Below the pieces are notes generated by a model, which worked only from the letters and a program-made list of their open reading frames with translations, ran no database searches and was not told the origin of the DNA. 64,000 nt of DNA. Origin: Blastomyces gilchristii SLH14081 (Eukaryota; Ascomycota; Eurotiomycetes; Onygenales; Ajellomycetaceae). Position numbers and translations under genes: made by a program. The stretch covers positions 1,016,786 through 1,080,785 of the forward strand of contig NW_003101681.1 of assembly GCF_000003855.2 (NCBI RefSeq), in the 5' to 3' direction. Shown here piece by piece: positions 3,969 through 59,679 of this stretch (positions are counted from its first letter, which is position 1; each line of letters opens with the position of its first letter).

Positions 3969-4005
<37 letters not shown>

Positions 4006-37618: not shown

Positions 37619-37839
37619 TTATTATTATTATTATTCTTCAATTATAGATGTATGCAGTCAGAGACTATGACATCTATCTGAGAACTTTTAGTTCTCAGAG
37701 TTTTTCCTATATCTGTAAAGTTAACTATTATACATTCATCAATTTCAGATAGGCAAAATCAGAAAATTCCAGCCCAGAATACAAAAACTGTTTACAAATT
37801 GCAGTGTTTTAACATCGTCTCATACTTTGAAACCATTTG
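37619..37839 (-). mobile_element. 5'-truncated LINE 3' end inserted in LINE B
   Basis: 221 bp of LINE 3' UTR with its (AAT)n tail at the left end. A 16-bp target duplication, agagtcttttatatta, flanks it (37603-37618, 37840-37855). The uninterrupted site is seen in LINE D (46650-46670) and LINE C (60220-60235). Confidence 0.93.
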
Positions 37840-37928
37840 AGAGTCTTTTATATTAATTGTAGAGATTTTTTTCAAATACTGTTTATATTCTCTCTCTTTA
37901 GATAGTTCACTAATTTACAAGTCTATGA

Positions 37929-39015
37929 AGGCCTGGTGACGTAGTGATTAACTACAATATTATAAAGTCTCAATTGACGGCCTTTCTCTCAGAGAATGAA
38001 TGCTAAGAGAGAGTAGATTCAAACTCTGTGAGAGTTATCTTAATCACAGCTTTCACTGTTAAGTTATAAAATAGTATCAGAGACTCTCAGATACACTATA
38101 GTGAATTATCATCACACTTAAGATATTTATCTCAGAGATTCTCAGGCACTAATTCTCACTGATCTTAGAATTAACAGCTCTTCAGATACTTTAAGTTAGA
38201 TTAGTACTAGAGTGATTAAGATCTAAAATATCTGCAGAATAGTGAATCATTATTAAGCTTAAGTGATTAGATCTCATCTCTCTCACTCTAAACACTTACT
38301 TCTGAGAAATTGAAATTTAAAAACTATCTGATTAGAATACTCTGAGCCTAGTAAGAATCTAGATGAGATAAGATCTAGATGCTTTTAATAGATGATTAGT
38401 GTAAGCAAGACTGTGACAGCTAATTGATAGACTGAAATACTGAGATTAACAGTTAGAAGATTAGAGACTTAACTAGAATTAAGTAGCTCTGATGTTATTC
38501 TTAGTAAGAATCTCACTTATGAATAAGCTAGTTACAGAAGCTAGCTGAGCAGCAGCTTTTTAAAGAGAATGATAATCTCTGAAGCAGGCTTGAGAGAACA
38601 GAAACAGCAGTCAGTTATATAGAGTGTTAAAATATGTATATAGCTTAACATGTTATCTGCAGAGATCTTATTCTGTAGATTTTTATTTTATTATAGTCTT
38701 TCTTTACTTTACTTTTCTCTCTGTTCTTTTCTATCTATTTAGTTAATATGTTTATCTTTAAGACTTTGTTCTCTTTTCGTTTGTCATGATATTTTCAAAT
38801 GATTTCAAAGTATCAGAAGATGTTAAAATACTGCAATTTATAAAGAGATTTTATATTCTGAGCTGAAATTTTCTGATTTTACATATTTGAAATTGATAAA
38901 TGTATAATAGTTGACTTTATAGATATTAGAAAACCTCTGAGAACTAAAAGTTTTCAGATAGATATTATAGTCTCTGACTGTATATATCTATTATTAAAGA
39001 ATAATAATAATAATA
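37929..39015 (+). mobile_element. SINE II, 1.09 kb, tRNA-like head and LINE-derived 3' end
   Basis: Begins with a tRNA-like head (ggcctggtgacgtagtgatt; box B-like gattcaaact at 38024-38033) and ends in (AAT)n at about 39000-39015. The last 335 bp or so (from about 38680) match the LINE 3' UTR (41678-42010 minus; 45141-45344 plus 59472-59666). Flanked by a 12-bp duplication acaagtctatga (37917-37928, 39016-39027). Empty sites are at 46722-46732 and 60293-60303. The middle 38050-38670 is unique in the window and has no ORF. Confidence 0.88.
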
Positions 39016-39545
39016 ACAAGTCTATGAGAGATTTCAGCTTTTCTCTTCAGAGACATATCTTCTCATAATCAATTTTCTCAACATTTAATAAAGAAAATTG
39101 ATTTTTAATCAGTGAATATAGTCTGTATAGTTGAGAGAGCATTTTCTTTGAAAAATCACTTTTATTTTAATCAAGAAATTTATTTTAATTCAGTTCATTT
39201 CCTGAGTTGATTGATGAAAATGAAGAAGAAACTCTTTGTTTGATTATATAGTTTAAGCTCATCTTTATAACTCTCAGAGTATAGTTCATACAGGCCTTTT
39301 CAAATCTAATAGTAGAAAGAGAAATTGATGCTTCAATTTTCATTTCTTTAATAGAAGATGATTTGAATACTCTCAGAATTCTTCTCAAAGCTCTGTTTTA
39401 CAGACTTTGAAAAAGTTCAGTGAAATTTCCTTGATTATTTCATTAAACTTGAACTTCATAATCAGCTACTGAGATAATACAGGCTATGTATAACTGTCTT
39501 ATAGCCTGGAAGAATAGATCTCTCTCTGTATTTAATAGTCTGACT

Positions 39546-40051
39546 TAGACTGACCGTGTGACCGTGTCTGGAACCAGGACCAGATTTTTTGATAGTCTCA
39601 TTATCAATTCGACCGCTCCCATTACACGGTTTTAACATTAGATAGTGGTCTCATACTGTCTCAGTGAGACTTACTGTCTACTCTTGTCACATTTTTCAAA
39701 TGAGACCATAATTTCCACTTCTCAATTTAAATTATTTTTATTGCTTTAAATGATTTTAAATCTCATTTAAGTGTTAACAAAAAGCATTACTTTTTAAAAA
39801 ATTAAAAATAGTCTAAAAAAAACCTTAAAATATCTAAAAATAGTAACTTTATGCTAAGAATGAGACTAAATGAAATCAAATGAGATCACTTTCTCATTTT
39901 TTTCAAGTCATGATTTCATTTTAAGATCTCATATACAGTCACTTTGCATGTTTTTTTAATGACTAGTCTCAGCGGCATTCATGCCAAGAAATGTATGAGA
40001 CCAGACTAAATGAAATCAAATGTGAAATTCATGGTCCCGGCGGCCAGTCTA
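39546..40051 (+). mobile_element. MITE 2, hAT-like
   Basis: 506 bp, tagactgaccgtgtg...ggccagtcta, with an 8-bp duplication gtctgact (39538-39545, 40052-40059). It retains CpGs at both ends. About 90% similar to the other four copies by eye. Confidence 0.94.
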
Positions 40052-40059
40052 GTCTGACT

Positions 40060-41328
40060 ACGGGTGCTAGTCATCTGCAGAATGCATCTTAAGCTAATTA
40101 CATTTAATTCTCTATAATTAACTGATCACTGCGTCCGTTCTCTCAGACCAGTTACTAATTTCCAGAGATGTTATTTAGTGACTGCTACTGCTCACTTAGT
40201 AATGTACACATCAAGCTTTCCGTTGCTGATCTCAGCATCATTAGATGTCTATAGGCCTATTAATCAGCTGTTGTGACCTCACTCTGTATTAGAGACTAAT
40301 TATAGACTTGATTAGGCTGAGTGTCAAAATTATAAATTTCATATTTGATCTCATTTGATCTGATTTCATACATTTCTTGGTGTGAATCCTGCTGAGACTA
40401 ATCAACAAAAAAATATACAAAGTAACTATTAATCAGATCTCAAAATGAGATCATGACTTAGAAAAAATAAGAAAGTGATTTCATTTGATCTCATTTAGTC
40501 TGACTCTTGACATAAAGTTACTATTTTTAGACATTTTAAGGTTTTTTTTAGACTATTTTTAATTTTTTAAAAAGTAACACTTTTTGATAACACTTAAATG
40601 AGATTTAAAGTCATTTAAAGCCATAAAAAGAATTTAAATTGAGAAGTGAAAATCATGATCTCATTTGAAAAGTATGATAAGAGTAGACAGTAAGTCTCAC
40701 TGTAACAGTATAAGATTACTATCTAATCTTAAAACTGTGTAATGAGGTTAATTAAATTGATAATGAGATCATCAAATATTCTGATTCTGATATCAGACAC
40801 AGTTATACAGTTAGTCTAGACTTAATGACTGCAGTTCTCTCTGTCAGTATTAAAGCTTGATAGTAAGCTTGCAGACTCTAGCCTATCAGACTACTCTGTC
40901 TAGAGTCTAGATACATGTCTAGATCTGCTAGTCAGATGATTTTTAAAATCATTCTCTGTATTTAAGAGAAAGCTAGACTCTGATAACAGCTCTAGTTAGA
41001 AACTAGCTTAAGTATTGTATAATCACTACATTAGACTTGACTCTATATTGTTAGAGTCTTGACAGATGTATAGTAAATTAGTAAAACATTGACATCTCAT
41101 ACTGACTCTGATGAGGGTTTGCAGAATCTTGCTTAACTAGTGACTTGACTTGTAGTAGTGAGTACTACTCTGTATCAAGTCTTACTAATTAGACTCAGCC
41201 TCTATTACATGAGAGCTTTCATGAGTAAGAAGTAGCAGATGCTAGTAATAAGATTCGAACTCACACATCTCTAATATGTGTAGTCTTGATTACCAGTCTT
41301 ATTAACTGAGTTATACTGACTTCATTGC
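40060..41328 (-). mobile_element. SINE III candidate with tRNA-like head, interrupted by MITE 3
   Basis: On the minus strand this starts at 41328 with a tRNA-like piece: box A-like ATAACTCAGTTAATAAG at about 41320-41304, a hairpin arm (ACACAT/ATGTGT), and box B GAGTTCGAATC near 41260. The rest, about 760 bp without the MITE, is rich in agtct/ctagt words and has no ORF. I see no tail and no target duplication, so the 3' boundary is set only by MITE 2. Confidence 0.45.
40313..40818 (-). mobile_element. MITE 3, hAT-like, reverse orientation
   Basis: 506 bp; ends taggctga...cagttagtcta are decayed TIRs. 8-bp duplication gactt(g/a)at (40305-40312, 40819-40826). The most mutated of the five copies. 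Confidence 0.9.
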
Positions 41329-41677: not shown

Positions 41678-42466
41678 TTATTATTATTATTATTATTCTT
41701 CAATTATAGATATATGCAGTCAGCGACTATGATATCTATCTGAAAACTTTTAGTTCTCAGAGTTTTTCTAATATCTATAAAGTTAACTATTATGCATTTA
41801 TCAATTTCAGATATGCAAATCAGAAAATTCCAGCTCAGAATATAAAAACTCTTTACAAATTGCAGTATCTTAGCATCTTCTGATACTTTGAAATTATTTA
41901 GAAATATCATGACAAAAGAAAAGAGAACAGAGTCTTAAAGAGAGACATATTAAATAAGTAGATAGAAAAGAACAGAAAAGAAAAGAAAAAGTATAATAAA
42001 GAGAGACTATAATAAAATAAAAATATTAAAAGATAGTGTATAGCTGTTTTAACAGACTATATCTGATTAATTTCCATCTCTTCATATTCAGATATTTCTG
42101 AATTTAGTCATTTTTCTATAGCTGCTTAAGTTTCTGATAGAAAGTCTATTAAGTATTTAATTTCTATCTTAGTTAAGAATAAGAATCTTATATTTAATTG
42201 ATTTAAATCATACTTCTCTTTCAATCTGACTCTGAGACTATTGTATAGTGCACAATGTATTATAAATTTATAATATACTTAGAATTTTCATTTGCATTGC
42301 AGAATGAGCATTCTATTGAATCAAATCTATTATTAAATCTTTGTATATAAGATTTGAAATAATCATATTCTAGTTTCAGCTGACTTATAGATGAGAATAT
42401 TTTCTTTTTACATTTAATTGAACAAGATTTTCAGTTGGATTTTGTTTCAAATCTTGAATAATGTAT
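41678..42466 (-). mobile_element. LINE C, 3' part with (AAT)n tail
   Basis: The end of ORF2 (CNAN, MHCVL-type Cys/His motif near 42300-42240; stop about 42055), a 375-bp 3' UTR, and the (AAT)n tail at 41678-41697. LINE D is inserted at 42466 with duplication ttgaataatgtat (42454-42466, 59667-59679). LINE C continues at 59680. The frame at 41910-41704 lies in the 3' UTR and is shared with SINE II; I do not treat it as a gene. Confidence 0.9.
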
Positions 42467-42900
42467 GGCTCAGAACCGCTCCACCACGAACTCACTTGAT
42501 TTTTCGAATATGAACCCGCCAATAGATCCATCAAAAAGCCCTCGATCATACAAGCATTTTAACCCCATCGCCGACCGCATACCCCGTGTGGTGGTGGAGC
42601 TATCCAGCCAAATGTGAACCAGACGTTGTTCGAAACTCCTGTGTGGGATTATCCCCCATTCACCCCTACCACACCACAACCCCGGGCCAAATTGCCATAC
42701 AAATTGTAAGGTGAAGAGACCTAGCCATATATGCCAATCTTCTTGATTTTGGAAGATCCCTGATCTGTAATTGTGAAGATATCTGAGAAGCAATCTTCAT
42801 GAAAACTCTGTTCATCTTTGATGTTTCAAAACATCAATGCCAAGTCCCACCCTTGTACCGCCCTTCTCAATCTGGCCCATCCCTGGCAGAAAAATACAAA
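42467..42900. other. GC-rich, unmutated 430-bp block at the LINE D 5' end
   Basis: More than ten CpGs and many CC/GG runs, against almost none on either side. A minus-strand frame without ATG spans 42793-42470 (107 codons, several Trp codons TGG intact); another begins MKIASQISSQLQIRDL at about 42811. Neither is recognised. It is either the normal LINE promoter region, spared because few copies are full length, or host sequence attached by template switching. Confidence 0.6.
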
Positions 42901-43829
42901 AAGATACCTCAGTAACAGTATTTGATAAATAATCAGTGAACAATGAGTCAACAGCATATTAACAACTATAAAATCAGTATATTTCAAGATCTGACTGAGC
43001 CTTTAATCCCTGCACAGTGAGATATATTAAATCTAGTTTTAATATCTCAATATTCAATAGATTCTGCAAGAGATTAAGAACAGCAACACTAAATTTCTAT
43101 TGAATTTGAAAATTAACTCTATATTAATATAATCATTGACAAAGTCTTCTATTTTGAGATATAAATAACCAGTTTCTTCACATCCTGCTGACAATATTTA
43201 TATTATTATATAGAAACAGACTTATATTCTTTATAATATCAAGACTCTGAAGAGAGAAAGTCTTGATAGAGAATATACAGTAGTACATATTTTAGCAGTT
43301 TCTATCTCATTCTTCTGCAGCAGTTAATACAAAAAAAGAGATCTTAGAAATAGTTTTTTACTTCTCTTGAAAAAGTAAGATGTTTTTCTCTGAATTTTCT
43401 ATAATATTCTTATAAAGAATTAAAAATAGAGTTATTTTCTATTATAATTTCATATTCTTTTAAATAAGAATTACTTTTTCAGTGACTGAAGAGCTTTTAT
43501 TAATACTTAGTTCTTTTTTACACTCTTTATTAACTGATTTGAGTTGAATACTTGTTATGTGAGAAGAATTGAATAATTTAGAATAAAATTGATTTATTTT
43601 TTATCAGTTTTACTCTCAAAAACTGTTATATTATCTGATTTAATATCAAGTAATATCATACTATTTCTCACTGTATTTCAAGAAAGAGATTGTAAAGATT
43701 TTATTGATTTATCTTTAAAATCAATTTTAGTTTATTTGATTCTCTTCAAAAATCTAACCTAGTTACTAAACTAGTGTGAAAAAAATCAGGTGTTTTATAT
43801 GTAAAAGTCTTTTATTCTTCTTTTGAAAT

Positions 43830-43966
43830 AGTCTGATCAACTTTTTCATTGAAATCAGACTTAGAATTCTCTTAATTAAAACAGTCTGATTAACTTTTCA
43901 ATTGAAAAGAGTTTAATAAATCTCTCAATTGAAACAGTCTGATCAACTTTTTATTGAGTGAGAATA
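43830..43966 (+). repeat. Tandem 5' UTR repeats of LINE D
   Basis: Three copies of an AAxAGTCTGATxAACTTTTT unit spaced about 50-60 bp, ending just before the ORF1 ATG at 43967. Repeated monomers in a LINE 5' UTR are often promoter units; here this is inference. Confidence 0.7.
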
Positions 43967-44634
43967 ATGAGTTCAAAAATACACTCAGTTGATATGAAAA
44001 AAAATGCTTTCTCAAATGCTATTTCTGAGCTTGAAATTCTAAAGAGAAGAAAGAAAGAAGAAATAGAGAAATAACAAGTTCTTGAAATACAGAAACTTGA
44101 AAAAGTAAGTAAGATTCTTGAAAAGCAGTGTCTGAATAAGATGAATGAAGAAGTTCTGTTAACTCTTTATACTCAGGCTAGACAACTACAGAAGATGATC
44201 AAGTTCAAACTTAAAATTTTAAACACAGTTCAAAAAACATTGAAAATTCCTAGTATAATTACTGACTCTTCACTTTACTCTTCTTCTTTTTCTACTTCTT
44301 CTTCTTCTTCTTTAAATTAGAAGAAAATATATGCTCAAGCAGCTGAATCTGCTGTCTTTAAATCTACTGTCTCAAAACCTGCTCAAAATTCTGAGAAAAC
44401 TGAGAAGAATACTGCTCATGCTTCTATTCATAGAAAAGTGAAGAAAAAAATGCAAAAAGAGAAAAACTTTCAAATTCTTAGAAATAGAAGACTTATTCTC
44501 AAAGTCTCAAATCAGAATATCTTGCAGAGAAATAAGCTAAACTCAAATCTCATTTTTAGAATCAGAAATGAAATTAATTAGCAGTTCTTTTCTCAATTAA
44601 TAACTGATATTAAAGTTCAAAAATCAGTTATAGC
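43967..44634 (+). pseudogene. LINE D ORF1, N-terminal half, broken
   Basis: Starts MSSKIHSVDMKKNAFSNAI at 43967, then a Lys/Glu-rich coiled-coil-like stretch (SELEILKRRKKEE), a Ser run, a KKIYAQAAESA block, and RNRRLILKVSNQN, as in other Tad ORF1 proteins. Stops replace Gln (TAA, TAG). The frame reaches the MITE 4 site at gttatagc and continues from 58966 downward on the minus strand because of the inversion. Confidence 0.85.
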
Positions 44635-45140
44635 TAGACTGACCGTGTGACCGTGTCTGGGACCAGGACCAGATTTTTTGATAGTCTCATTATCAATTCG
44701 ACTGATCCCATTACATGGTTTTAACATTAGATAGTAGTCTTATACTGTTTCAGTGAGACTTACTGTCTACTCTTATCACATTTTTCAAATGAGACCATGA
44801 TTTCCACTTCTCAATTTAAATTATTTTTATTGCTTTAAATGACTTTAAATCTCATTTGAGTGTTACCAAAAAGTGTTACTTTTTAAAAAATTAAAAATAG
44901 TCTAAAAAAAACCTTAAAATGTCTAAAAATAGTAACTTTATGCCAAGAATGAGACTAAATGAAATCAAATGAGATCACTTTCTCATTTTTTTCAAGTCAT
45001 GGTTTCATTTTGAGATCTGATATATAGTCACTTTGCATATTTTTTTAATAATTAGTCCCAGCGGAATTCACACCAAGAAATGTATAGAATCAGATTAAAT
45101 GAGACTAAATATGAAATTCATGATCTCAGTGACCAGTCTA
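44635..45140 (+). mobile_element. MITE 4, hAT-like; left inversion breakpoint
   Basis: 506 bp, tagactgaccgtgtg...gaccagtcta. Left flank gttatagc (44627-44634), right flank attttaac (45141-45148): no duplication of its own. Each flank matches a flank of MITE 5. Confidence 0.94.
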
Positions 45141-45344
45141 ATTTTAACATCTTCTGATACTTTGAAATCATTTAACAATATCATGACAAAAGAAAAGAGA
45201 ACACAGTCTTAAAGATAGACACATTAAATAGATAGATAGAAAAGAATAGAAAGAAAAAAGTAAAGTAAAGAGAGACTGTAACAAAGTAAATTATTAAAAG
45301 ATAGTATATAGCTGTTTTAACAGACTATATCTGATCAATTTCCT
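45141..45344 (-). mobile_element. LINE D 3' UTR, first part (inverted segment)
   Basis: Matches LINE C 41880-42080. The ORF2 stop lies near 45330. The remaining 3' UTR and tail are at 59472-59666 on the other strand. Confidence 0.88.
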
Positions 45345-45719
45345 CGCCCCAGTGGCCGAATGGTTAATGCGGCCACCTGATAGCGCCTTGGCGCGGGAAA
45401 TCAAGGCATGTGGGTTCGAAACCTGCAGGGAATACATTAAATCCGGAACTCAAGTACCTCAGGTTTCTAATAAATACAGAGGTGTATGAATCACTTCAAC
45501 AAATCACTCTATGTTTCTGAGATGAGAAGTTATTATTACATGTATTTAATTATCATCTCTTTGTATTTTCTATATTCTTGTTATCTTGATATGATCTCAA
45601 CACCTGTATTTTCTCCTGTATAATCAACACTTGACCTGTATTTAACATTACACAAGAACTCATCATAAGCTCCGCTTGCATATGAGTATAATAGAAGAAG
45701 AAGAAGAATAATAATAATA
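45345..45719 (+). mobile_element. SINE I copy 2, tRNA-Ser-like head with (AAT)n tail
   Basis: 375 bp. Head 45345-45440: box A GTGGCCGAATGGTTAATGC, long arm, box B GGGTTCGAAACC. Tail (aag)n/(aat)n at 45695-45719. Flanked by atcaatttcct (45334-45344) and atcagtttcct (45720-45730). The head keeps its CpGs, so it is younger or better protected than copy 1. LINE C at 42060-42080 shows the site without the insert. Confidence 0.93.
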
Positions 45720-45730
45720 ATCAGTTTCCT

Positions 45731-48574
45731 TCTCTTCATATTCAGATATTTCTGAATTTAGTCATTTTCTTATAGCTGCTTGAGTTTCTGATAGAAAGTC
45801 TATTAAATATTTAATTTCTGTCTCAGTTGAGAATAAGAATCTTATATTTAATTGATTTAGATCATACTTCTCTTTCAATCTAACTCTGAGATTATTGTAT
45901 AATACACAGTGCATTACAATATACTCAGAATTCTCATTTGCATTGCAGAATGAGTATTCTATTAAATCAAATCTATCATCAAATCTTTGTATATAAGATT
46001 TGAAATAGTTATGTTCTAGTTTTAGCTGCATTATAGATGAGAATATTTTCTTTTTATATTTAATTAAACAAGATTTTCACTTGAATTTTATTTCAAATCT
46101 TGAATAATATATACTCTTCTTTTATTTCTGTCAGCATTTATTTCACTTATCTAAATAAGATTCTTTTATCTTTCTCTTTATAAAAGATCAGAACATAATT
46201 TTTTAAATAGATCTGCTTAATTCTGAACTCTTTTCTACAGCTGAATCAGTCAATTCATTGTTATGAATATTCATATAAGCAGGAACTCAGTGCAGATAAA
46301 TTATCAGTTTTGATATTCTTCTCTTTTGAATTTTAAAAACAGAGTTTAAAATCAGTTCAAGATTCATTTGATCATTATGAATCTGACTATTTCTAAGTCT
46401 TTTTAAAGCAGCTTGACTATCAGAGAATATTCATATCTCTTTCAAACTATTTTCTCTTTTATAAGATTTTATTTCAATAAGTTTGAAAGCTTTCACTATT
46501 ACAAATAGTTCAGTATCAAAGACTTCAGATTCACAGTCTAAATTTCAGAAATCTGAGATAAAATTGATATTATCTTCAGTATAAGCAATGTCTGCATCTA
46601 ATTTATTCAAATTCTTATTTTTTAAGTCATCTGAATAGATCAGAATAGAGTCTTTTATATTAATTATAGAAATCTTCTTCAAATACTATTCATATTCTCT
46701 CTCTTTAGATAGTTCACTTATTTACAAGTTTATAAGAGATTCAAGCTTTTCTCTTCAAAGAAATATCTTTCCATGATTAACTTTTTCAATATTTAATAAA
46801 GAAAATTGATTTTTAATCAGTGAATATAGTCTGTATAGTTGAGAAAGTATTTTCTTTAAAGAATTATTTTCATTTTAATCAAGAAATCTATTTTAATTCA
46901 GTTCATTTTCTGAGTTAATTGATAAAAATGAAGAAGAGACTCTTTCTCTAATTATATAATTTAAGCTTATCTTTATAACTCTCAGAGCATAGTTTATACA
47001 GATCTTTTCAAATCTAATAGTAGAAGAGAGAATTGAAGCTTTAATTTTTATTACTTTAATAGAAGATGATGTGAATGCTCTCAGAATTCTTCTCAAAACT
47101 CTGTTTTACAAACTTTGAAAGAGTTCAGTGAAATTTTCTTAATTATTTCATTAAACTTGAAGTTTATAATCAGCTACTGAGGTAATACAGGCTATATATA
47201 ACTATCTCATAGCCTGGAAGAATAGATCTCTCTCTGTATTTGATAGTCTGATTATACTATTCAATAGTCTTTCTGCCTTGATTATTCTTTATTAAATATA
47301 ATATTTAAAATTCAACTTAGAGTTTAATCATACTTTTAATCATTTAACATTCAAACTGAGTTTAATCTCTCTATTTAAAAGTGTTAGATATAGTTTTTTC
47401 TCATTAAATCTAGAAAAGAAATGAATTAACTCAGTTTTATTCATATTAAATTGAATTTAATTAATATCTGCTCTAACAAAGATTTTCTTTACTGCTTTTT
47501 CAATCACTTCTAAATTCTCTTTGATTGTTTTTGAGCTGTAGACTAGATCAATATCATTCATATAAGTTAAAGATTGCACTATTTTCATATCTCTATTCTG
47601 GAATAGATATACAGTGTATATTATAAATAAAATAAGTGAGATTGAGAATTCTTACAGTACTTCTATTTTTATCTCAGTCTTATCTTATTTCATTTTATCA
47701 AACAATAGTTATATAATTCTTTTAGATATAAAATAGTTAACTCATTTTATTAGAGAAAGTGATAGTTTTAATATCTTCAAAGTCTGAATTAACTTTGACT
47801 TTGAAAAATGATTAAATGCTTCTTTTATATCAATAAAAATGATAGTTAAGATCAGATCTTCATACTTTACTATTTAAATATTATGAATAACTGAGAGAAC
47901 AGTGTTAATTATAGAGTATTGTTTTCTATCTTCTATTTATTCACTGAATAGAAGAGAATTATTAATAGAGTTTATAAATAATAGTTAAGTAGTTATTATC
48001 TTTTCTAACATCTTTTCTAGACAGTTCAATAGAGATATTACTCTATATAACTCAGAAATTGAAGTTTTTCTATTAGGGTTTACAAGAATCACTTCAGTGA
48101 CTTCTTCTCAGTCTTCAGAATGATATTCATTTTTCAAGAGATTGAAAAAGAGCTCAAAATATTCATTCTTTAAGTAGAAGTATGTATTTTAAATGATTAA
48201 GTGATTGATTGAATCAGACTCTGCAGCAGTTTTAACTGAACTTAAGAAGATAGCTGACTCTAATTCATCTTATATAAGCTCAGATTATTCTCAGTCATTT
48301 TCATTAATATACTTATAAAGTGATATATTCTCTTTCTCTGAATCTGAATCTGATAAGTTTTGAAAGAGAATTCTTATGAAAGCTTGACATTTTTTCTCAA
48401 AAGAATTTGCTGTATATAATTCTGAAACTTATATTCTAAGACTGAAAGTTTTGCTACACTTCTTATTTTAGTATAGTTAAAAGCTTTAAAAACTTTCTTT
48501 TCTTATATCTCTTCAAGAAATTTATTTCAGCAGTCTATTTTAGCTCTTTTAATATCTGAAAAATATTTATTTCT
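45731..48574 (-). pseudogene. LINE D ORF2, C-terminal two thirds, broken
   Basis: From 48574 downward: end of endonuclease/RT linker, RT (about 48400-47400), the block after RT (47096-46893, RRILRAFTSSSIKVIKIKAS), RNase H (about 46640-46400), and the C-terminal Cys/His motif CNANENSEYIVMHC with the open frame 46031-45762. The stop is just beyond SINE I. The RT is badly decayed: the GGRKQ region near 47925 and motif A near 47840 contain stops. Confidence 0.85.
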
Positions 48575-48770
48575 TGTGATTCAAAGGTTGCTTGAGCCAG
48601 TGTACGATTACAGGCGTATGCCGGCTTCTTATATATCATACACTAAATTAATTAGTGGCTGCTATGACCCCCTTACATTCATAAGCAAGTTCGGAAGCGG
48701 CCGCGTTATTATTCAACAGTCATATGTTCTTCTGAACCACATCAACAGTCATATATTCTTTCAAATCACA
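48575..48770 (-). repeat. X3 3' LTR
   Basis: 196 bp. It has an extra 29-bp unit compared with the 167-bp LTRs of X1 and X2 (…gaaccacatcaacagtcatat…). The right half is CpG-decayed; gaagcggccgcg is kept at 48692-48703. Confidence 0.94.
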
Positions 48771-48891
48771 TTCTCTCCCATCAGATTTGATCACACTTAC
48801 ATGATCATGACATTCATCCTAGCTTCATGCGGATTAGTGCGCCACTAGTGTTCACAATCTTGTAACCTATTCCTGATTTAGCTAGCATTCT

Positions 48892-49164
48892 GTGTACATT
48901 CTCACAAAGAAACTTTCACTATATTACATCACTCATTCACTAACTTTTCTTATTCTTCAATCATCTTCTTCATCATCATTATTATCAAACATCACTATCT
49001 CATTCAAGATTTCTATTTCTTCTTCTATTCAACTCTTTTCATCTGTTCATCTATTATATCATACACATTTCTGGCAATGGCTCTTCATTTTCATAACAAG
49101 TGTTCTCATAGTACTCATATCAGGCAGTTTGTTAGCAGTAAGTGTAATATGTTATGAAATATAA
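48892..49164 (+). pseudogene. X3 antisense frame d, membrane-like
   Basis: 90 open codons with no clear ATG, running from just inside the 3' LTR. Ser-rich, then HTHFWQWLFIFITSVLIVLI, a convincing membrane segment. At 49138-49143 the sequence GTAAGT starts a 59-nt intron-like segment ending CAG at 49196 with CTAATAATCAT before it. X1 (15223-15165) and X2 (35943-35884) keep the same signals. Confidence 0.5.
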
Positions 49165-49297
49165 TCAGAACTTGTTTATCTTCTAATAATCATCAGAATG
49201 TACTATCATGAATGACACACCTTCTTCATCTTCTTATACATTCTTAACTGTTTCCTTCTCAGTGAATTTCTGATCATGTTTTCTGACACAATTTTAC

Positions 49298-49747
49298 ATG
49301 AATACAGATACTGATATGTTTGTTTTTATTCATATAGAATCTTCACACATTGACAGATTCACATCTGCTGATGATAGTGAACTCAATATTGAATCATTGA
49401 TTGAGAACTTGAAGAACATGATAATGAAGGAATTATTCATGTCATGTATAATCAGGTCTTTCACATCTCTCTCTGCCTTCTCTGTTTCTTTCTCTGCCAC
49501 TTCCTCTCAATCTTCTACACCTGCTTCTATGTCTGGTTCTCCTGCTTTCACTACCTCTGTTCCCGCGACCCTCACTTCTGCTACTTCTGGTTTTATTATC
49601 TCTGCTTTCATTATCAGCTCTTCTTATTTCAAGAAGATATTGTGTAGACTTAATAAATCATGTTTCTCAGCATGTACACTCTCACTCTTCTTACTGACTC
49701 TCAGAACAATTTATTATATAAAGACTGTGTATAATATAACTATCTGA
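49298..49747 (+). pseudogene. X3 antisense frame a, Ser/Thr-rich
   Basis: 149 codons from ATG: MNTDTDMFVFIHIESSHIDR, LNIESLIENLKNMIMKEL, a Ser/Thr/Ala/Pro-rich middle and a hydrophobic end IYYIKTVYNITI. No stops in this copy, better than chance in such a decayed setting, though the low-stop Ser codons help. The frame 49444-49647 is a shadow. Confidence 0.55.
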
Positions 49748-50075
49748 AGCTCAGTTATAAATACTGATTATTACATTTATTTTAAATATTCATGATAAGA
49801 TAATCATTCATTCATATCAGAGAATCACTTCTCTCTTCAACAGTGTTAAGATCATAAGTCTTTTTCTTTTTCATCTTTTCTTTTCAACACTGATTTTTCT
49901 ATTCTTAGAGAAAATTGTTATGAGTTTTACTGTGTATGAAGTCATAATATTCACAGATATCAAGAAGCTTTTTACAACTGTAAAGTTCAATATCACAGAG
50001 ATATTCACTCTGATGAATTTCTTCAGAATAATAGATTCATATCAGTCTATTCTCTAATATCTATTATCTGACTTC

Positions 50076-50348
50076 ATGATGCAGACAAAAGATATTCATG
50101 TTTTCAGAAACAGAAACACAGATGTCATACTCTTTTACACCTGCAAGTGTGAGGCTCATACACCTTGTCTGAGATATTATTGTAAGAATGAGTTATTCAC
50201 ACACTGCATTCTACTTTCTGTATTCCCCTGTATTTCTCTCTCTCTTCCTGAGAAGTCTCATGTATGTTGTAATTGTGTGTACAATTCTAAGATCAGTGAG
50301 TGTTTATTCAGTAATTATTATCTCTGCTTTTACAGTTTTGTATACTAA
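50076..50348 (+). pseudogene. X3 antisense frame b, Cys-rich
   Basis: 90 codons from an ATG: IHVFRNRNTDVILF, CKCEAHTPCLRYYCKNELF, SHVCCNCVYNSKISEC. Eleven or so Cys residues. A 75-nt intron-like segment from GTGAGT (50296) to CAG (50370), with TACTAAT inside, would join it in frame (phase 1) to frame c and skip its stop. Confidence 0.55.
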
Positions 50349-50369
50349 TAATGATTCTTAGTTACTTCA

Positions 50370-50738
50370 GTGTCAGAGATTATTCTAATTGAAGATGATA
50401 ATATCACTGAGACTACTTTCTTCTACTCTCAAGCTTCTTCTGTCACTTTCTCTCCCTTCTCTGCAGAGAAGATTGTGCACACATCAGATTATAAGCATTC
50501 AGCTCTGAGTGACTCCTGTCATCATTTATTCAGTTCTGCATCTCTCTCTTTCATTTCTTCTGTCTCTGTCTCTTCTGCTCTGACTTCTGATTCTGTGAGT
50601 CTCACACTCTTCTTCAATTTCTCTATGTGTACGCGTACACATTTCTATATTGACATTTCAGCCAATCTTGTGATAAATCACATTAATGTCATATACAGAG
50701 CAGTAGAGAAATCAGAGACATGCATAGCATTGTTATAA
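50370..50738 (+). pseudogene. X3 antisense frame c
   Basis: 122 codons beginning right at the candidate splice acceptor: SEIILIEDDNITETTFF, Ser-rich middle, TRTHFYIDISANLVI and VIYRAVEKSETC. The end is identical in layout in X1 and X2. Unknown protein. Confidence 0.55.
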
Positions 50739-51290
50739 GAGCAGCTTACAGCTCTTGAATCTCTTACAGATCTTGAGTTTTGAGATTTCCTTTATTTTTA
50801 ATGTTTTTCAGGTGGTGTGGCATTGAAAATAGATTAAATATATAACATATAAAAATGAATGAAGTATGTATGATAACATTTATCTTTTACAGCTGACTCT
50901 TACAGTTGATGATCAATTCATTATCTCTTTTCTTTTCTTACACTTTTTCTTTATCTGCTAGTCACTACTCTTACATAATCTCTATATAATACAGTATTTA
51001 ATGACTAGGTTTAGCAGCTTTCATCTTTTATAATTCTGTCTTATATATTATACTGTCTCTCTTCACCTGCTCAGATCACTACAGTGAACAGCTTATCAAA
51101 ACTAATCTCACTCAATCTCTGAGCATTCTCAGAGATCAAGATGACTTGGTCTCATATATTCATGAATATTTCAGATAGTTCATTCTCTGTAATCTCTGCA
51201 ATTAAACTGATATAAACAGTTGAATTCAACTCTGAATTTCTTTTTCTTCTGTGATCTGACTCATGTATAAGTCTGCTACTTTGAGACTGC
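50739..51290. other. X3 spacer between antisense frame c and pol
   Basis: No reading frame in either direction that is shared between copies. Homologous to X1 13040-13600. Confidence 0.5.
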
Positions 51291-52846
51291 TCTTTACTGC
51301 ATTGTGCTCACTGTCTGTAGCATGTTATCATACAATCAGCTATAGTCTCATTACTTATTAAAGTGTGATATTCATCTGATTTCTTCATTACTTCTCATTC
51401 TTTTCTTATAATCATAGAAAGATCAGAATAAGTGAGATTATCTGATTTATAAGTATCTATGATTTCTCTTACTTCATAAGACTTTTCAATTATAAGTCTC
51501 TTCTTTTTCAACACTGATAATAGTACTGTAGATGATTATAATTCACTCAGATCTTATATCTTTACTTTCATAAGTCATGAATCATTGATTAAGTTGTGTA
51601 AGACTCATTTCTCTGATTCTTTCAATGCATATATTCTCAGAGAATGTGATTTGAGTATTTTATACAACTTAAATCATCTAGATTGAAACTTCTCAGAATT
51701 CTCATTGTATATGAGAACTCACATTCTCATCTTGAGACTTGATTCCTTAACTAGTGAGTCTCATATTCTTTTCAATTGAATTGCTTGATTCAGAAGTAAC
51801 TTGTTAGCTTTTGCACATGTGTGACTGATCTCTTTCAATCTTGATTCTGTGTTCACGACTGTTGCATCTGTAACTGCTACTGCTGTGTCTGTAACTGCTG
51901 TTCCTGCTGCGTCTGTAACTGCTGTTCCTGCTATGTCTGCAACTGCTGTTCTCTCTTCCACCTTTTCTAAAGCATTCTCCGGGATGCGCGGATGCAATCC
52001 ATATAACAGGTAGAATGGTGAACACTTGGAGACTGCATGCTGTTAAATCCACATGATCAATAGCACCTGCCCGAGATATTCATTTCATAGTCTTATAGAC
52101 TTGCTCACTAGATATTTTATTAACATATTGCTCAAGATTTCATTCAAGTGTTTCATCTTCTCATTTATCTGTGAATGATATAGCATTGTTCTACAATGTC
52201 TTGTCTGTAACTGGTTTATGAAATGCCTCACTACTTCTCTCATGAGATTCACACTGTTATCAGTTAGAATCTCACACAGCATTTCATAGTTAACATAGAT
52301 CTCATCATGTAGAAACTTCACTATCATCTTCTCTATCATCTCTGAAACTGCTTTTGTGACTGGTCAGTCAGTAGTGTAATCAATAGCAGTGATTATTCAT
52401 TGATTTCTATTTAACATTTGTGATAATATGTCTATGAGATTCATCTCTTATTATTTAAACAGTTGTATTGTACACTTCATCTGATATTATACTTTCTCAT
52501 ATTCTAATCCTTTCTTAGATTCTTTCATAATCTGATAATTCAGACACTCATGAGTATACATCTGAATGTTCTCAGTCATGCTTGGCCAGTATACTCTTAA
52601 TTCAAGTATACTCATGAGTTCAGAGCTTTCTAAGTAACTGAATTTCTTGTGCATGTGAGTTATCAAGTCATGTCTAAATAAAGATTCTAGATAGAGAGTG
52701 TCTATATATTCTAGATCACAGTAAAGCATAACATTGTTTTTCAATTTTCTCAGTTTGAAGTTTGAAAGCATCTCTTCTACTACTCTTATGAGATGCTTGT
52801 TATTCAATATCTTATCATTCTTCAAGTGAGAGATTATAATGTTCAC
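51290..52846 (-). pseudogene. pol: X3 integrase and pol tail, broken
   Basis: Three open pieces. 52846-52487: zinc domain (MHKKFSYLES, YWPSMTENIQMYTHEC). 52339-52085: core with EILTDNSVNLMREVV (second Asp) and YHSQINEKMKHLN (Glu); the first Asp is in AIDYTTD at about 52385-52365, between the two pieces. 51997-51761: MHPRIPENALEKVEE, then Ala-Val-Thr-Asp repeats and CAKANKLLLNQAIQLKR. About 51835-52070 keeps CpGs. The other frame at 52052-51804 is a shadow. Confidence 0.88.
51860..51965. repeat. Minisatellite in X3 pol
   Basis: Four to five copies of a 24-27 bp unit around gtctgtaactgctgttcctgc (minus sense: an AGTAVTDA-type repeat). X2 has a single degenerate unit here (33170-33200) but duplicates the 169 bp before it. 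Confidence 0.85.
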
Positions 52847-52899
52847 TTATTCTGATTTCTTGCACTTTCTCAGTGTATTTAATACAAACTTCTCTTATA

Positions 52900-54190
52900 T
52901 CTGATTCACAGAACTCTCATTCATGAAATCAGATCTGTGACTGATTACATCAGATATTACAGTATCTGATTTCTTTCAGTATTTGATATAAAGATTGTAT
53001 GCTTAAAACTCTGAGATTCAACATACTAAGTATTTAAAAGATTTTATTATTAATTATAGATAGATAAGACTTTCATAATCTGTAATCACTGTTATTATAT
53101 GCTTATTATTAATATATCTATCTCATAATATCAGTATGTGCTTGATCAGTAGTAATTTCTTTTTATATACTGAGTAATTGAGCTTGATATCTGATAGTTT
53201 TCTATCATTATACATCACTGAGTGCAGCTTGCTGTTCTTACTCATCTGTAGAAGAGTATCTTTAATAGCTTATTCAGATGCATCTGTCTTAATATAGAAA
53301 GATTTATCATAATCTGATTGAATAAGTACTGAGAATATTGTTATATATTCTCTCAGTATGAGAAAAGCCTCTTCACACACAGTATTTCAGATGATTGAAT
53401 GAAACTTCTTCTTTTACAGATTTATATTCATTTCTCTTAAGAGATCTGAGAGTGATATAGATATTTATATGAAATTCTTGATAAATCTGCAGTAATATGA
53501 GATCAACTCAAGAAACTGTTGTATATAATATATGTTTCTCAGTCATAGTTAATTCATTATAATATTCAATTTCTCTGAGATAAGATATATACAGTCATCA
53601 CTTACTATATATTCTACAAACTTCAACTCTTTCATTTCAAATATACACTTTGTTAATTTAATATAGAGCTTATACTCTGTTAGAGTTGTAAGCACTTCAT
53701 TGAGATACTTCAGATATTTATTGTATAAGTTTGAAAAGACTAGAATATTATTAAGATATATAAGATATGAGATTTCATTCTGTTTATAAAGAATTATATT
53801 CATTATTATTTGAAAGATAACAGATGCATTTATTAGACTGAATAGTATTATCAGAAATTCAAACTTCTCTTATTGTATATTAAACACAGTTTATGAGACT
53901 GACAGTTTATCTACACAGATCTGTCAGTATTCTGAGAGAAGATCAATCTTTGATAGATATCAGATGTTTTCAATTATATTCAACTATTGTTGAATCTATG
54001 ACAGTGAATATTCATTCTTAATTATAAGCTTATTAAGTGCTTAATAATTAATACACATTTATCACTTCTTATTCACCTTTTTCATGAATAGGACTGAAAA
54101 GCCTCACATTCTTAATGAGAGTTATATAAGATCATGTTCTAGAAGATCTGTGATCTGACACTTCTATTCTTCAAGATATGTTTGTGACAG
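52900..54190 (-). pseudogene. pol: X3 reverse transcriptase and RNase H, broken
   Basis: The open piece 53803-53549 reads YLIYLNNILVFS (YLDD to YLNN at about 53765-53740) and KLYIKLTKCIFEMKELKFVEYIVS. RT upstream of it to 54190 and RNase H at 53400-52900 follow X2 with additional stops. Confidence 0.87.
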
Positions 54191-54349
54191 AGAATATATA
54201 TTCTGATTGACTGATTTTACATTCTCTGTGTTAATCTTATGTACAAATTCTCATTTCAGTGACAGTTTCAGTGAAAGATTTATTCAGAAGATTTTCTTAT
54301 ACTTCTTCAGAAGCTTCTTCATACACTTATTCTCTTATATATCTTTTAT

Positions 54350-56298
54350 CTTGATTTTCTCCACTTTCAGGTTCTGTATAACATACAGAATGCTTTCAGA
54401 TGAGGTCTTATGAATTGTTCTCTTTACTTATTAATGTATAAGCAGATTTAATTCTTCTATATCAGAGACATGGAATGTTCTTCTCATATCAGTTAATAGA
54501 ATTATATGAACTGTTTTCTTTCTATCAGTCAACTGTATATGACATGTATATCATTGAATCTGTGAATTGAACCTTTAGAATTAATTAAGTCTGAGAATAA
54601 GATCATATTTCACATTCTGCAGCTCTCATACTCAAATATAGCAAGATCATTCTTCAAAGTGCAAGAGAACTCTTACTCTTGCAGATGATATCAAATATCA
54701 GTTATCAGATAATCTTATATATCAGGAATTCTTCACTCAGCAGACCTCTTTCAGTCTTCAGATCATATAATTATTAATATATTATATAGAAGCTTCTGTG
54801 TTCACTAACACTTTTGCAGCCATCTCTTGATTCTTATTCAAGTGTCTCTTACACATTAACATTTCAGGTCTCAAGACATTGAGATGAGTATTCACTTCAT
54901 CATTCTCATTCATATCTCATTTGAGAGCCTGCTTCTTCTTTGTATTTACAGAATCTAGAGAATTATCCAACATGAGTATCTCTTTCACTTTGAAAACTTT
55001 TTATAGAATATCAGCAAGTGTCTCTGAGCTCACTGATTCTGCTAGTTTTTTGACTTTCTTACTTCTCTTAACTGTGTACACTCAATACAATCTTTTACAT
55101 CATGATTTTGATATCTGCAGTTGAAGTAAGCTCAATACTCACAATATTAAGATTTTCACTCAGAGAATTTCTTTTTCAGAGAATTCAGTACTTTAGTAAT
55201 GATATTCAGATCTAGATTCATCACATTCAGATGTATGACTTATATTATAGAAGTCTGATTACTTGTTCTTCACTGAGACATACTTAATTACAGTATTTTC
55301 TGTTATAATTGACTCACTTGTTTCTGTATAATGAGAATATTGTATACTTCTTTCATCATATCTGATTATAAGATTAAGCATTTTCATTTCACTCTCAACT
55401 CAGATGTAAGATCAGGAATAAAGATCTGTAAATAGAAAGATGTTAAAAGCTCTTCATTCAATATGAGATAGTGTAAGCTGAAGTGTGTAAAGTATAATAT
55501 AAGATTACTCACTTATCTACACTCAGTGAAGTATTCATAACACTTATCTCATATATTTACTTTCTCAAAGTTGTGCAAGATTCATTTGAAAAACTCATTT
55601 CATATTTATGAAAATGAATATCACTTCAGATCTGTAAGATTCATCTTTTCATCAGTCATTTATAATAACTTTGCTTTTTCACATAGAAATGTATCAGATC
55701 TTAAGACTTGTTGAAATTCTGTTAACTGTCTGTCTGTAAGTTCATATTTAATCTGATAATATGATTGTATCTGACTTAGTCAGCTGATTACAGCATTATT
55801 TTTTCAGTTGCTCTTGAAGCTTGATAGCTCTGACAGATCTTTCAGCTTGATATATTTCATACTCAGATTCTTATTCTGTGCAGTGATCTCTGATGATATG
55901 TACACTTCTGAAGAGATTATAAACAATTGTGATGAAATCTTCAGATTTAGTATAGTTATCTGTCTGTGTAAATATTTAATCTTCTGCTATAGATCTAAGA
56001 TCTGATTTTCTCTATTCTTATTAATGATGATAATTATGTCAGCAAAGCTCTTCATAGTGAATGCTTGATCTGCAGTAAATGTCAATTATTGTTTGACTTT
56101 CATCTCAGCCTGTCACTGTGTATGCAAGATCTTGATCTTGTTTAGAATTCTTATATATGTACAGAGCTTTGATTTCAGTTCAGTGATTTCAGTCACTTTT
56201 CTTACTGCTTTAAGTAAACTCTCTGAGAGATTCTGCATATCTTTCAGTTCAGATAGCAGAGAAGAGTGTTGTTCATATTGATTAGAGAAGATATTCAT
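54350..56298 (-). pseudogene. gag: X3 gag and protease region, broken
   Basis: Gag starts at ATG 56298: MNIFSNQYEQHSSLL, open for 61 codons with a heptad-like Leu pattern (LLSELKDMQNLSESLLKAV). The knuckle at about 55135-55090 reads AYFNCRYQNHDVKDC, that is C-x2-C-x4-H-x4-C with the first Cys as Tyr. The protease between 54850 and 54350 cannot be read with confidence. Confidence 0.78.
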
Positions 56299-56707
56299 TT
56301 CAGTGATTTCTCATTGATTATATAATATCTATTGTTATATCACTGTATCATTATCACTTTATTATTATATAATTTCTGTTATCATTATATGACTTCAGTG
56401 ATGACTACTTCTCTCTTTTATCTCTTTGAGTGAAGAGCAGTCTTCTTTGAATCTGATTCACTGCTTTAATTTCTCTTTCTCATATCTTATCTGTTCATGT
56501 ACATGGCATTTACCTGAGTGTGGAGTTTTCTCTCAACAAGCAAAGCAGCATTAATCAGATGCTCTTTCACTCATCACTCTTTATATGCTATCTTTTGAGA
56601 TGTTCTAGAACCACACTGGCATGATAACTATAAATCACTTCATAGACAGAATTATCATGCTCTGAAGAAGCCTGCACTTCTCACCAGTTTTTAGACATGC
56701 TATCAGA
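56299..56707 (-). other. X3 leader between 5' LTR and gag
   Basis: About 410 nt. It begins tctgatagcatgtctaaaaa right after the LTR; no TGG, so the primer site is unclear. A TGATA/ATTAT-rich stretch precedes gag. Confidence 0.55.
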
Positions 56708-56903
56708 TGTGATTCAAAGGTTGCTTGAGCCAGCATACAATTACAGGTGTATGCCGGCTTCTTATATATCATACACTAAATTAATTAGTGGCTGCTATGG
56801 CCCCCTTACATTCGTAAGCAAGTTCGGAAGCGGCCGCGTTATTATCCGACGGGCGTACGTTCTTCCGAATCACATCGACGGTCGTACGTTCTTCCGAACC
56901 ACA
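56708..56903 (-). repeat. X3 5' LTR
   Basis: 196 bp. Keeps an almost intact CpG-rich half (56820-56900) with two copies of a cgtacgttcttccgaa unit; the same half is decayed in the 3' LTR. Confidence 0.94.
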
Positions 56904-56907
56904 TTCT

Positions 56908-57995
56908 GACAGCTTTAAACTTTTTATCAGATATTATATTATTCTTTCAATCTCTTCTAACAGTAGGTAATTGTTTTCTTTTAGATATGATATTCTCATT
57001 TCATTAAGATTTGAAACACTCAGAAGACTTTCTCTTTGACATATTATCTCTAACACTTGTTAGAATAATAGATGTAATGAGCTTCACTCTATTTTCAAGT
57101 ATTTCATTTGAGATATCTTGATCAGAATTTCAATATAACTCACTCTGCTTTTCAGATTTTAACAGTTTTATACTTTCTTCAACTGCTTTTCAATCAGCTT
57201 TTTCAAAGTTAAACTGATTAGAGAGAAGAGAGTTTTCACTCATTTATTTTTCACTTAGTTTAATATTAAATTGAATAATCTCATGATCTGATTCTGATGT
57301 CTCATTTGAATTAATAAATCAGTTTACAAGTCTTTTTTCAATTAGATTTTATGATATGAAGATTAGATCTATAATAAATTTCTGTTTCATATCATTCTAA
57401 AGAATGTTTATTGATCAGACTTGTTAACTAGATCTATTTCATACTCAAAGATTTATTTAATCAGATTATCTGCTCTTACTGCTCTTTTGCATTCTGAATT
57501 TTATCAGAGATGATGTGCATTGAAATCTCCTGCAATTATAGAGTTTCTTAATAAAGTTATATTCAGAAATTCTCTATTAATTATTCAGATATTATTATTT
57601 TTCTTCAATGACTTTTCATTATAGATATTTATAAGCTGTATAGTATCAAACTCATTCTCTTTATCTATAATATCACTCATTACAATATCAGAGTCAGACA
57701 TGATATTAAATCTTAGATTAAATTAGTATCTTGATCTCTTTCTTTCATAGATCACTACTCTTAACTTTATCTCAGACTTTTGAGATAGAAAGCAGTAGTA
57801 GCTTGAATGAGAAATGATGTATTTTTACTCAGCATCAAAATTCAGTTTCTGAAGTAGTATAAAATCCACTTTTTATTCAAATGTAATTTGAAGATAAGAA
57901 TAAATACAATTTGAGTTTCTATTTACATTATTTTGAATAAATATGATTTTTGAAGAGTTTTTAAACTTTTTTTGTTATTTTTATTGTATATTCAT
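56908..57995 (-). pseudogene. LINE D ORF2, endonuclease part, broken
   Basis: Starts at ATG 57995, overlapping the ORF1 stop as ATGA, as in LINE A. IIFIQNNVNRNSN, then RVVIYERKRSRY, then a GDFNAHH-type block near 57520. X3 interrupts it at 56907. Stops replace Gln and Trp. Confidence 0.85.
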
Positions 57996-58966
57996 ACTGA
58001 AAAAGAGTAGAGATAGAGTAGAATTTAATCACTATTATCAGATAGTAGATTATAACTATTTTGAAAAGTAGAAATCTCAACTGCTTGCATTATATCTAGT
58101 TTATCATCAGAGTCATTTCTCAATTCTCTAATTTTAATAGAAGTTTGAGAATTCAAATTCTGTTTACATTTAGCTGAAGAATTGAAGTTTGAAGATTTAG
58201 ATAGTTAAGAGTTTCTTCTTTTTAAGCTTACAGTTATAGATTTACTGGCTTGACTATTCTCTTCAGTTCTAGATTGACTTTGAGATTCATCTTTTCTTCA
58301 GTTCTTTTGAGTTCTTGAAGTAAATATACATTCTTTTGAGCTAGATGCATGTTTTTCTTTACAATTAGAGCATTTAAGCATAGTATGTTAATATATTGTA
58401 TCTCTTTTTAAGTAAGTTTCATATTTATACTCACTAGTTTTGTGATCTCTAGTATAGAATGTATATTTTAAGTCTCTAAAACAAGAGATTGTAAAGTGTC
58501 TATATCTTTGATAGTTTGAACACTGTGTTTGAGCTTTGAGATTCATTCTTGAGTCTTTGTATTCATGAACTCTTACTTTCAAACCTGCTACTCTTACTTC
58601 AGAGATCTTTGATTGTTCAAGTGTCTTTATATATACTAGAACAGAGACATTTCTTCTACTTTATCTGAACTCAATTGAAGTTAGTTATATAGACTCTTTT
58701 CTCAGTTGAATAGAGTTGTATTCTTCTAATTAATTTTTGAGAAGTAGTATTTCTTCTTCACAGTCAAAAATTTCAACTAAAATATTATAAAGAATGAATT
58801 TATCTCACTTTTTATCTCTCTCAGATAGAATTATTATGTTTAATAAAGATTCTACTGCTGATTTTCAGAGATTCTCATTCTGAATAAGGAATTTCACACT
58901 GAATTCAGGCATTGTAGTCAGAATGATGAAGTTTTCAAAGAAGAATAGCTTAATTAAAGCTATAAC
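57992..58966 (-). pseudogene. LINE D ORF1, C-terminal half, broken
   Basis: Continues from 44634 across the inversion: FFFENFIILTTMPEFSVKFL, then VRVHEYKDSRMNLKAQTQCS. The zinc knuckles are damaged (YQRYRHFTISC, YTRDHKTSEY). The frame ends with SFSV then TGA at 57994-57992. Confidence 0.85.
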
Positions 58967-59471
58967 TAGACTGGCCGCTGGGATCATGAATTTCACATTT
59001 GGTCTCATTTGGTCTGATTTCATACATTTCTTGGCATGAATCCCGCTGGGACTAGTCATTAAAAAAACATGCAAAGTGACTATATATCAGATCTTAAAAT
59101 GAAACCATGACTTGAAAAAAATGAGAAAGTGATCTCATTTGATTCCATTTAGTTTCATTCTTAGCATAAAGTTACTATTTTAGACATTTTAAGGTTTTTT
59201 TTAGACTATTTTTAATTTTTTAAAAAGTAACACTTTTTGGTAACACTCAAATAAGATTTAAAGTCATTTAAAGCAATAAAAATAATTTAAATTGAGAAGT
59301 GAAAATCATGATCTTATTTGAAAAATGTGATAAGAGTAGACAGTAAGTCTCAATGAGACAGTATAAGACTACTATCTAATGTTAAAACTGTGTAATGAAA
59401 TTAGTTGAATTGATAATGAGACTATCAAAAAATCTGGTCCTAGTCCCAGACACGGTCACACAGTCAGTCTA
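58967..59471 (-). mobile_element. MITE 5, hAT-like; right inversion breakpoint
   Basis: 505 bp, reverse orientation to MITE 4. Left flank gctataac (58959-58966), right flank gttaaaat (59472-59479). These are the reverse complements of MITE 4's left and right flanks. Confidence 0.94.
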
Positions 59472-59666
59472 GTTAAAATACTGCAATTTGTAAACAGTTT
59501 TTGTATTCTGAGCTGGAATTTTCTGATTTTACATATCTGAAATTGATGAATGTATAATAGTTGACTTTAGAGATATAGGAAAAACTCTAAGAACTAAAAG
59601 TTCTTAAATAGATGTCATAGTCTCTGACTGTATACATTTATAATTGAAGAGTAATAATAATAATAA
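59472..59666 (+). mobile_element. LINE D 3' end with (AAT)n tail
   Basis: The rest of the 3' UTR, plus-sense, with the tail at 59652-59666, followed by the target duplication. It shows that LINE D was originally plus-sense throughout. Confidence 0.92.
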
Positions 59667-59679
59667 TTGAATAATGTAT

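Follow-up and report, generated by a model that had tools for sequence, protein, structure and literature searches.

How did two transposon copies come to carry each other's target-site duplication? The question arises at a locus of Blastomyces gilchristii SLH14081 in which two miniature inverted-repeat transposable elements (MITEs), M4 and M5, lie in opposite orientation within one copy of a long interspersed nuclear element (LINE), LINE D. We analyzed a stretch of 64,000 nucleotides, the window, with a G+C content of 29% (C2:1016786-1080785, where C2 is contig NW_003101681.1 of assembly GCF_000003855.2); positions are window positions unless a contig is prefixed. The assembly comprises 74.8 Mb in 75 contigs, and the window sits on a 7.1-Mb contig. 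Very probably, the two inverted MITEs inside this single LINE copy underwent reciprocal ectopic homologous recombination, which turned over the segment between them.

M4 and M5 carry exchanged flanks

The features at the two breakpoints are:

44627-44634, plus strand: gttatagc, flanking M4 on the left and paired with 58959-58966
44635-45140, plus strand: MITE M4, 506 bp, with the ends TAGACTG...CAGTCTA
45141-45148: attttaac, flanking M4 on the right and reverse-complementary to 59472-59479
45141-58966: inverted segment, 13,826 bp
58959-58966: gctataac, flanking M5 on the left and reverse-complementary to 44627-44634
58967-59471, minus strand: MITE M5, 505 bp
59472-59479: gttaaaat, flanking M5 on the right and paired with 45141-45148

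Aligned with their flanks and in opposite orientation, M4 and M5 shared 92.7% identity over 519 bp, and they thus supply a substrate for recombination. Neither carries an 8-bp duplication of its own; the flanks are exchanged between the two. When the segment 45141-58966 was turned over, two perfect 8-bp duplications resulted, with agreement at 16 of 16 bases. An earlier note, made from the letters of this DNA alone, had given the same coordinates and flank letters and had described both the missing duplications and their restoration by the flip, all of which was found in the sequence as described.

LINE D is broken in the present order and continuous after the flip

LINE D lies inside LINE B and is distributed over the locus as follows:

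42454-42466: target-site duplication of 13 bp on the left side of LINE D, TTGAATAATGTAT
42467-44634, plus strand: 5' part of LINE D (5' region and start of open reading frame (ORF) 1), outside the inversion, its start deduced from the duplication
45141-48574, minus strand: 3' part (ORF2 with reverse transcriptase, 3' untranslated region (UTR)), turned round and split by an insertion resembling a short interspersed nuclear element (SINE)
56904-58966, minus strand: middle part, from the end of ORF1 into the start of ORF2, turned round
59472-59666, plus strand: end of the 3' UTR (195 bp) with a (TAA)n tail, outside the inversion
59667-59679: target-site duplication of 13 bp on the right side of LINE D, TTGAATAATGTAT

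The 13-bp duplication that the earlier note had placed around the whole of LINE D was thus located on both sides. Elements A to D are assigned to the LINEs on the basis of a LINE-type reverse transcriptase and, for LINE D, of the duplication and the simple 3' tail. The domain RVT_1 was detected in LINE A (E = 5e-12) and in LINE D at 47745-48107 (E = 6.7e-7), and four of five PDB matches of a LINE A piece were LINE-1 ORF2. The ORF1 frame of LINE D (ORF 43958-44650) runs into M4, and the corresponding frames in LINE A and in a further genomic copy (L039) cross the flipped join.

For the junctions, each MITE was removed and about 150 bases per side were joined, once in the flipped and once in the present order. 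Within the window, the flipped 5' junction matched LINE A (3133-2898) without a break over 236 bp with 89% identity, and the flipped 3' junction matched the copies at 38682-38979, 42030-41718, and 37838-37656, whereas the junctions in the present order matched other copies half by half only. In the genome search, 40 places were scored per query, out of 966 and 2,192 first-look candidates for the flipped 5' and 3' joins and 2,998 and 2,982 for the joins in the present order. All 40 matches listed for the flipped 5' join were continuous (39 covering bases 1-300 and one 2-300) with 93-95% identity. For the flipped 3' join, 41 of 42 listed matches extended over the full 308 bases, also with 93-95% identity, the last one being a half match. 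In contrast, the junction was crossed by none of the 41 and none of the 41 matches listed for the two joins in the present order, where the overrun was at most 7 bases; two matches in each list were the window itself. These results agree with the previous claim that the flip makes LINE D continuous, also in comparison with LINE A.

In nearly all matches of the flipped joins, the genome stretch had the length of the query, with the 8 bases present once and no gap where the MITE would stand. These joins therefore also represent unoccupied sites for two insertions with ordinary 8-bp duplications. With longer flanks, all fetched LINE loci (30 of 30 for either join) kept the flipped order, also over the part of LINE D next to M4. 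Since these loci, 30 of the 40 scored places in each case, had been selected by the flipped joins, the searches with the present-order joins are the fair control for the continuity of the LINE.

Assemblers are known to flip segments at inverted repeats, and the true order might be the un-inverted one if the inner segment had been joined backwards via the two similar inverted MITEs. Among the listed matches, the halves of the present-order joins reached 100% identity only in the window, with no second allele. The repeat is, however, merely about 506 bp long with 7% divergence, and the contiguity of the assembly, with a 7.1-Mb contig at this place, points to long reads that would cross repeats of this size. 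We consider an assembly flip to be very unlikely.

Apparently two further LINE insertions in opposite orientation are present in LINE C (37604-39016). One is short, 5'-truncated and bordered by a 15-bp duplication, AGAGTCTTTTATATT; the other is known by its 3' end alone.

Exchanged flanks are unique to M4 and M5 among 130 sampled MITEs

To the two MITEs described above, the window adds three copies:

36483-36989: MITE M1, full length, with an ordinary 8-bp duplication, cagatgag
39546-40051: MITE M2, full length, with an ordinary 8-bp duplication, gtctgact
40332-40818: MITE M3, fifth copy in the window, truncated at one end and not used

Flanks were measured for 130 distinct full-length MITEs; partial copies and copies at the end of a locus were left out. 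Most of these MITEs came from among the best matches to M4, M5, or M2, and the sample leans to well-kept copies. Perfect 8-bp duplications were found in 98 of them and duplications agreeing at 7 of 8 bases in 23, so that 121 of 130 copies show the 8-bp target-site duplication that is a trait of MITEs of the hAT superfamily. For a less biased subset, 34 loci were selected on the basis of the MITE 5' end: 20 were the first on the list of exact matches, and 14 had this end together with a flank like that of one particular copy, L126 (see below). Three of them had another body and one was too near the end of its locus; 28 of the remaining 30 (including L162, which is the same locus as L117) had a duplication at 7 or 8 of 8 bases.

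Nine of the 130 copies fell below 7 of 8, two of them being M4 and M5. In five others (L104, L164, L045, L089, and L160) the duplication agreed at 5 or 6 of 8 bases with transitions only, which fits decay, and that of L140 fitted after a shift by one base, as judged by eye. Besides M4 and M5, L126 (C6:3004143-3004647; flanks TCTGAGAC / GCTTCTAT) was the only sampled full-length MITE in which the duplication was wholly absent. A pattern search for an exchanged partner of L126 with at most 2 mismatches returned 14 places, none of which is on its contig; L149 was dropped owing to its position near the end of the locus, L159 proved to be another element, and none of the places measured had exchanged flanks. 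No second exchanged pair was found in the sample.

Two MITEs with decayed duplications could also happen to share flanks by chance. Duplications do decay in this family: in the 128 copies other than M4 and M5, 33 of 46 mismatches within them were transitions. Among the 8,385 pairs formed by the 130 copies, however, M4-M5 was the sole one with exchanged flanks matching at 16 of 16 bases, the next best being 14 of 16 (23 pairs). From the base use of the flanks in the family, a match at 16 of 16 has a chance of about 1.7e-8 per unrelated pair, and 0.05 is the number of such pairs to be expected if all 2,351 copies are paired. Furthermore, the flip regains the continuity of the LINE at both ends. 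Fortuitous sharing of the flanks thus has a negligible probability.

The figure of 2,351 is the number of genome occurrences of the MITE 5' end with at most 3 mismatches (none when it was read backwards), some of which belong to other elements (3 of the 34 fetched). Because this end is so abundant, an inverted pair 14 kb apart is therefore unremarkable in itself. Rare are full-length MITEs without a duplication, and M4 and M5 are two such copies 14 kb apart with exchanged flanks.

The MITE family is probably of the hAT type. On contigs C1 and C2, at least 3 of 11 matches to hAT domains had an exact MITE 5' end, from among the 100 such ends listed, 4.9-6.4 kb upstream on the same strand; at least three such pairings occurred in 0.29% of 20,000 random placements. 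Three loci, C2:2593003-2598333, C2:6496022-6502699, and C2:5284175-5289329, contain hAT dimerisation domains with in-frame stops downstream of a MITE 5' end and are possible longer hAT relatives of the MITE, judging from their domains.

Elements of the hAT superfamily can mobilise the ends of neighbouring copies, as known for Ac/Ds. As the MITE family looks hAT-related, a transposase acting on ends of both MITEs by alternative or composite transposition might have made the inversion. No third target site was found, and each original site retains exactly one duplicated partner. The composite block would therefore have had to land again precisely in its own empty site, which is an unlikely event. 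Moreover, the element has its 5' end on the outer side in both copies, which would be an unusual pairing. We regard inversion by a transposase as highly improbable.

Two side observations concern the family itself. L159, L169, and L178 represent a further element family (88% alike) that has the first 43 bp in common with the MITE, followed by a different, A-rich body. At C16:317987-319006, a MITE is nested inside another one of the same family.

Probable homologous recombination between the inverted MITEs

The duplications of M4 and M5 are exchanged, LINE D is broken in the present order, and the flip restores both. We infer homologous recombination as the agent, and also the order of events; reciprocal recombination between inverted repeats predicts both the exchanged duplications and the continuity of the LINE restored at both ends. 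LINE D would first have inserted into the older LINE B, creating the 13-bp duplication. Two MITEs of the same family would then have inserted into LINE D in opposite orientation, one at gttatagc in ORF1 and the other at gttaaaat in the 3' UTR, with a duplication of 8 bp at either site. At some point, a SINE-like element and a long terminal repeat (LTR) retrotransposon would also have entered between the two MITE sites. A crossover between the inverted MITEs (non-allelic homologous recombination) would then have turned the intervening segment and left MITEs with exchanged duplications.

Several points weigh against this scenario. The evidence comes from one assembled sequence. Chimerism of the MITEs, with variants above expectation at the 3' end of M4 and at the 5' end of M5, is weakly seen: the M4-M5 contrast (maximum at alignment column 376) was equalled by 215 of 7,875 other pairs when the cut was free. 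With three fixed cuts, chosen after viewing the data, it was reached by 57, 66, and 72 of 8,128 pairs, M4-M5 included. In addition, the 5' and 3' mutation loads are uncorrelated in the MITE family, so that chimerism is no firm test. A crossover near alignment columns 330-376 would account for this distribution of variants, but the mapping was dropped, the contrast being too common among other pairs. The earlier statement that both breakpoints are recorded exactly accordingly holds at the level of the MITEs rather than of the crossover within the 506 bp.

A wider reading starts from the 2,351 matches to the MITE 5' end in 75 Mb. Close inverted MITE pairs would recombine repeatedly, M4-M5 being a live flip site; the orientation of this segment and of others would differ between nuclei or strains, and inversions made by MITEs would steadily supply the genome with small rearrangements. 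We hold this to be unlikely.

Comparison with known inversions

Exchanged duplications have been described for larger inversions of Drosophila. Guillen and Ruiz (2012; PMC3355041) call them unequivocal evidence of ectopic recombination in the case of inversion 2s of D. mojavensis, which was made by the MITE BuT5. There, as in M4-M5, MITE copies are present at both breakpoints and their duplications are exchanged, being 9 bp long for BuT5 and 8 bp for M4-M5. In contrast, 2s is described there as a fixed chromosomal inversion in which one BuT5 copy is cut to a 27-bp fragment, whereas both MITEs are full length in our case and the inversion spans 13.8 kb, wholly within nested transposons. The ancestral order was derived from a sister species for 2s (PMC3355041) and from the host transposon for M4-M5. 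In inversion 2z3 of D. buzzatii (Delprat et al. 2009; PMC2775673), the two transposon copies likewise point in opposite directions and have swapped their duplications. The element that made it, Galileo, is a transposon of the P superfamily with long inverted repeats and not a MITE of the M4/M5 family. Both of its copies at 2z3 are reported as chimeric (PMC2775673), whereas the contrast between M4 and M5 is shared by other pairs as given above. Among the titles and beginnings of abstracts returned by a literature search, which included microinversions and protists and mostly excluded subscription journals, no close case was present.

The mechanism is thus an ordinary one and the process is known; M4-M5 is another member of the Galileo/BuT5 kind, smaller and with a very clean record. 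From a single assembled sequence one can read off the ancestral order and the substrate as well as both breakpoints, because the inversion fell inside a transposon whose order is shown by many other copies. If real, the event indicates that recombination at a distance of 13.8 kb was possible in the B. gilchristii genome between inverted copies about 506 bp long, which are 93% identical today. The tests for exchanged duplications and for continuity of the host transposon are applicable to all MITE copies and could yield a rate of such events.

Insertions between the MITEs

Two further elements interrupt LINE D between M4 and M5, each in register with the surrounding LINE:

45334-45729, plus strand: tRNA-like SINE insertion with an (AAT)n tail, including an imperfect 10-bp duplication, ATCAATTTCC / ATCAGTTTCC, identified by eye
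48575-56903, minus strand: LTR retrotransposon in LINE D, with LTRs of 196-200 bp and TG...CA ends

ARAGORN and Rfam reported no tRNA in the window, and the label SINE reflects a reading by eye. A second tRNA-like SINE copy is present at 3981-4356 (89% alike). Since the (AAT)n tail resembles that of the LINE, its sequence suggests that the SINE copies may be moved by the LINE machinery. The LTR retrotransposon is flanked by a 4-bp duplication, TTCT, at 48571-48574 and 56904-56907 and contains the domain Integrase_H2C2 (E = 2e-7). The differences between its two LTRs (48575-48774 and 56708-56907) are almost all transitions and are crowded in the 3' half.

C-to-T decay of the repeats

Decay of the repeats by C-to-T changes varied with the following base: CpC and CpG were favoured, CpA less so, and CpT was nearly spared. 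This was observed in MITE copies (M1, M2, M4, and M5 of the window and loci L001-L182) and in the LINE loci L009-L068. In 128 MITEs, 2,853 transitions and 169 transversions were counted relative to the majority base (about 17 to 1). With the ancestral C guessed from the alignment, the mean share of T in the MITEs was 0.33 at CpC, 0.25 at CpG, 0.08 at CpA, and 0.02 at CpT; the respective values for a 1.5-kb LINE piece (22 copies) were 0.56, 0.53, 0.27, and 0.08. Two shorter LINE pieces (30 and 34 copies) showed the same order for CpC, CpA, and CpT. At least 10% change was found at 38 of 49 CpC sites of the MITEs vs. 2 of 50 CpT sites. The rank correlation of the loads on the two strands was 0.76 for the MITEs, 0.58 for the long LINE piece, and 0.35 and 0.04 for the short ones.

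In the window as a whole, CpC and CpG reached 0.30 and 0.12 of their expected frequencies. The indices customary for repeat-induced point mutation (RIP), TpA/ApT and (CpA+TpG)/(ApC+GpT), were 0.87 and 1.37 and miss the thresholds of 0.89 and 1.03. By its sequence pattern the decay resembles RIP, for which CpA is given in the RIPCAL paper (PMC2621366) as the dinucleotide preferred by most known affected fungi. This RIP-like decay of CpC and CpG may be more unusual than the inversion. Four DNA methylase matches were found in the genome, one of them within an open frame of 1,236 amino acids.

Genetic code 6, in which TAA and TAG encode glutamine, was tried for the reading frames and rejected, as in-frame TAA and TAG are better explained by C-to-T decay of CAA and CAG. 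Two TAA codons inside another of the four DNA methylase matches speak against the standard code. It is nevertheless likely the one in use, because under it the 1,236-codon frame with the DNA methylase match is free of stops.

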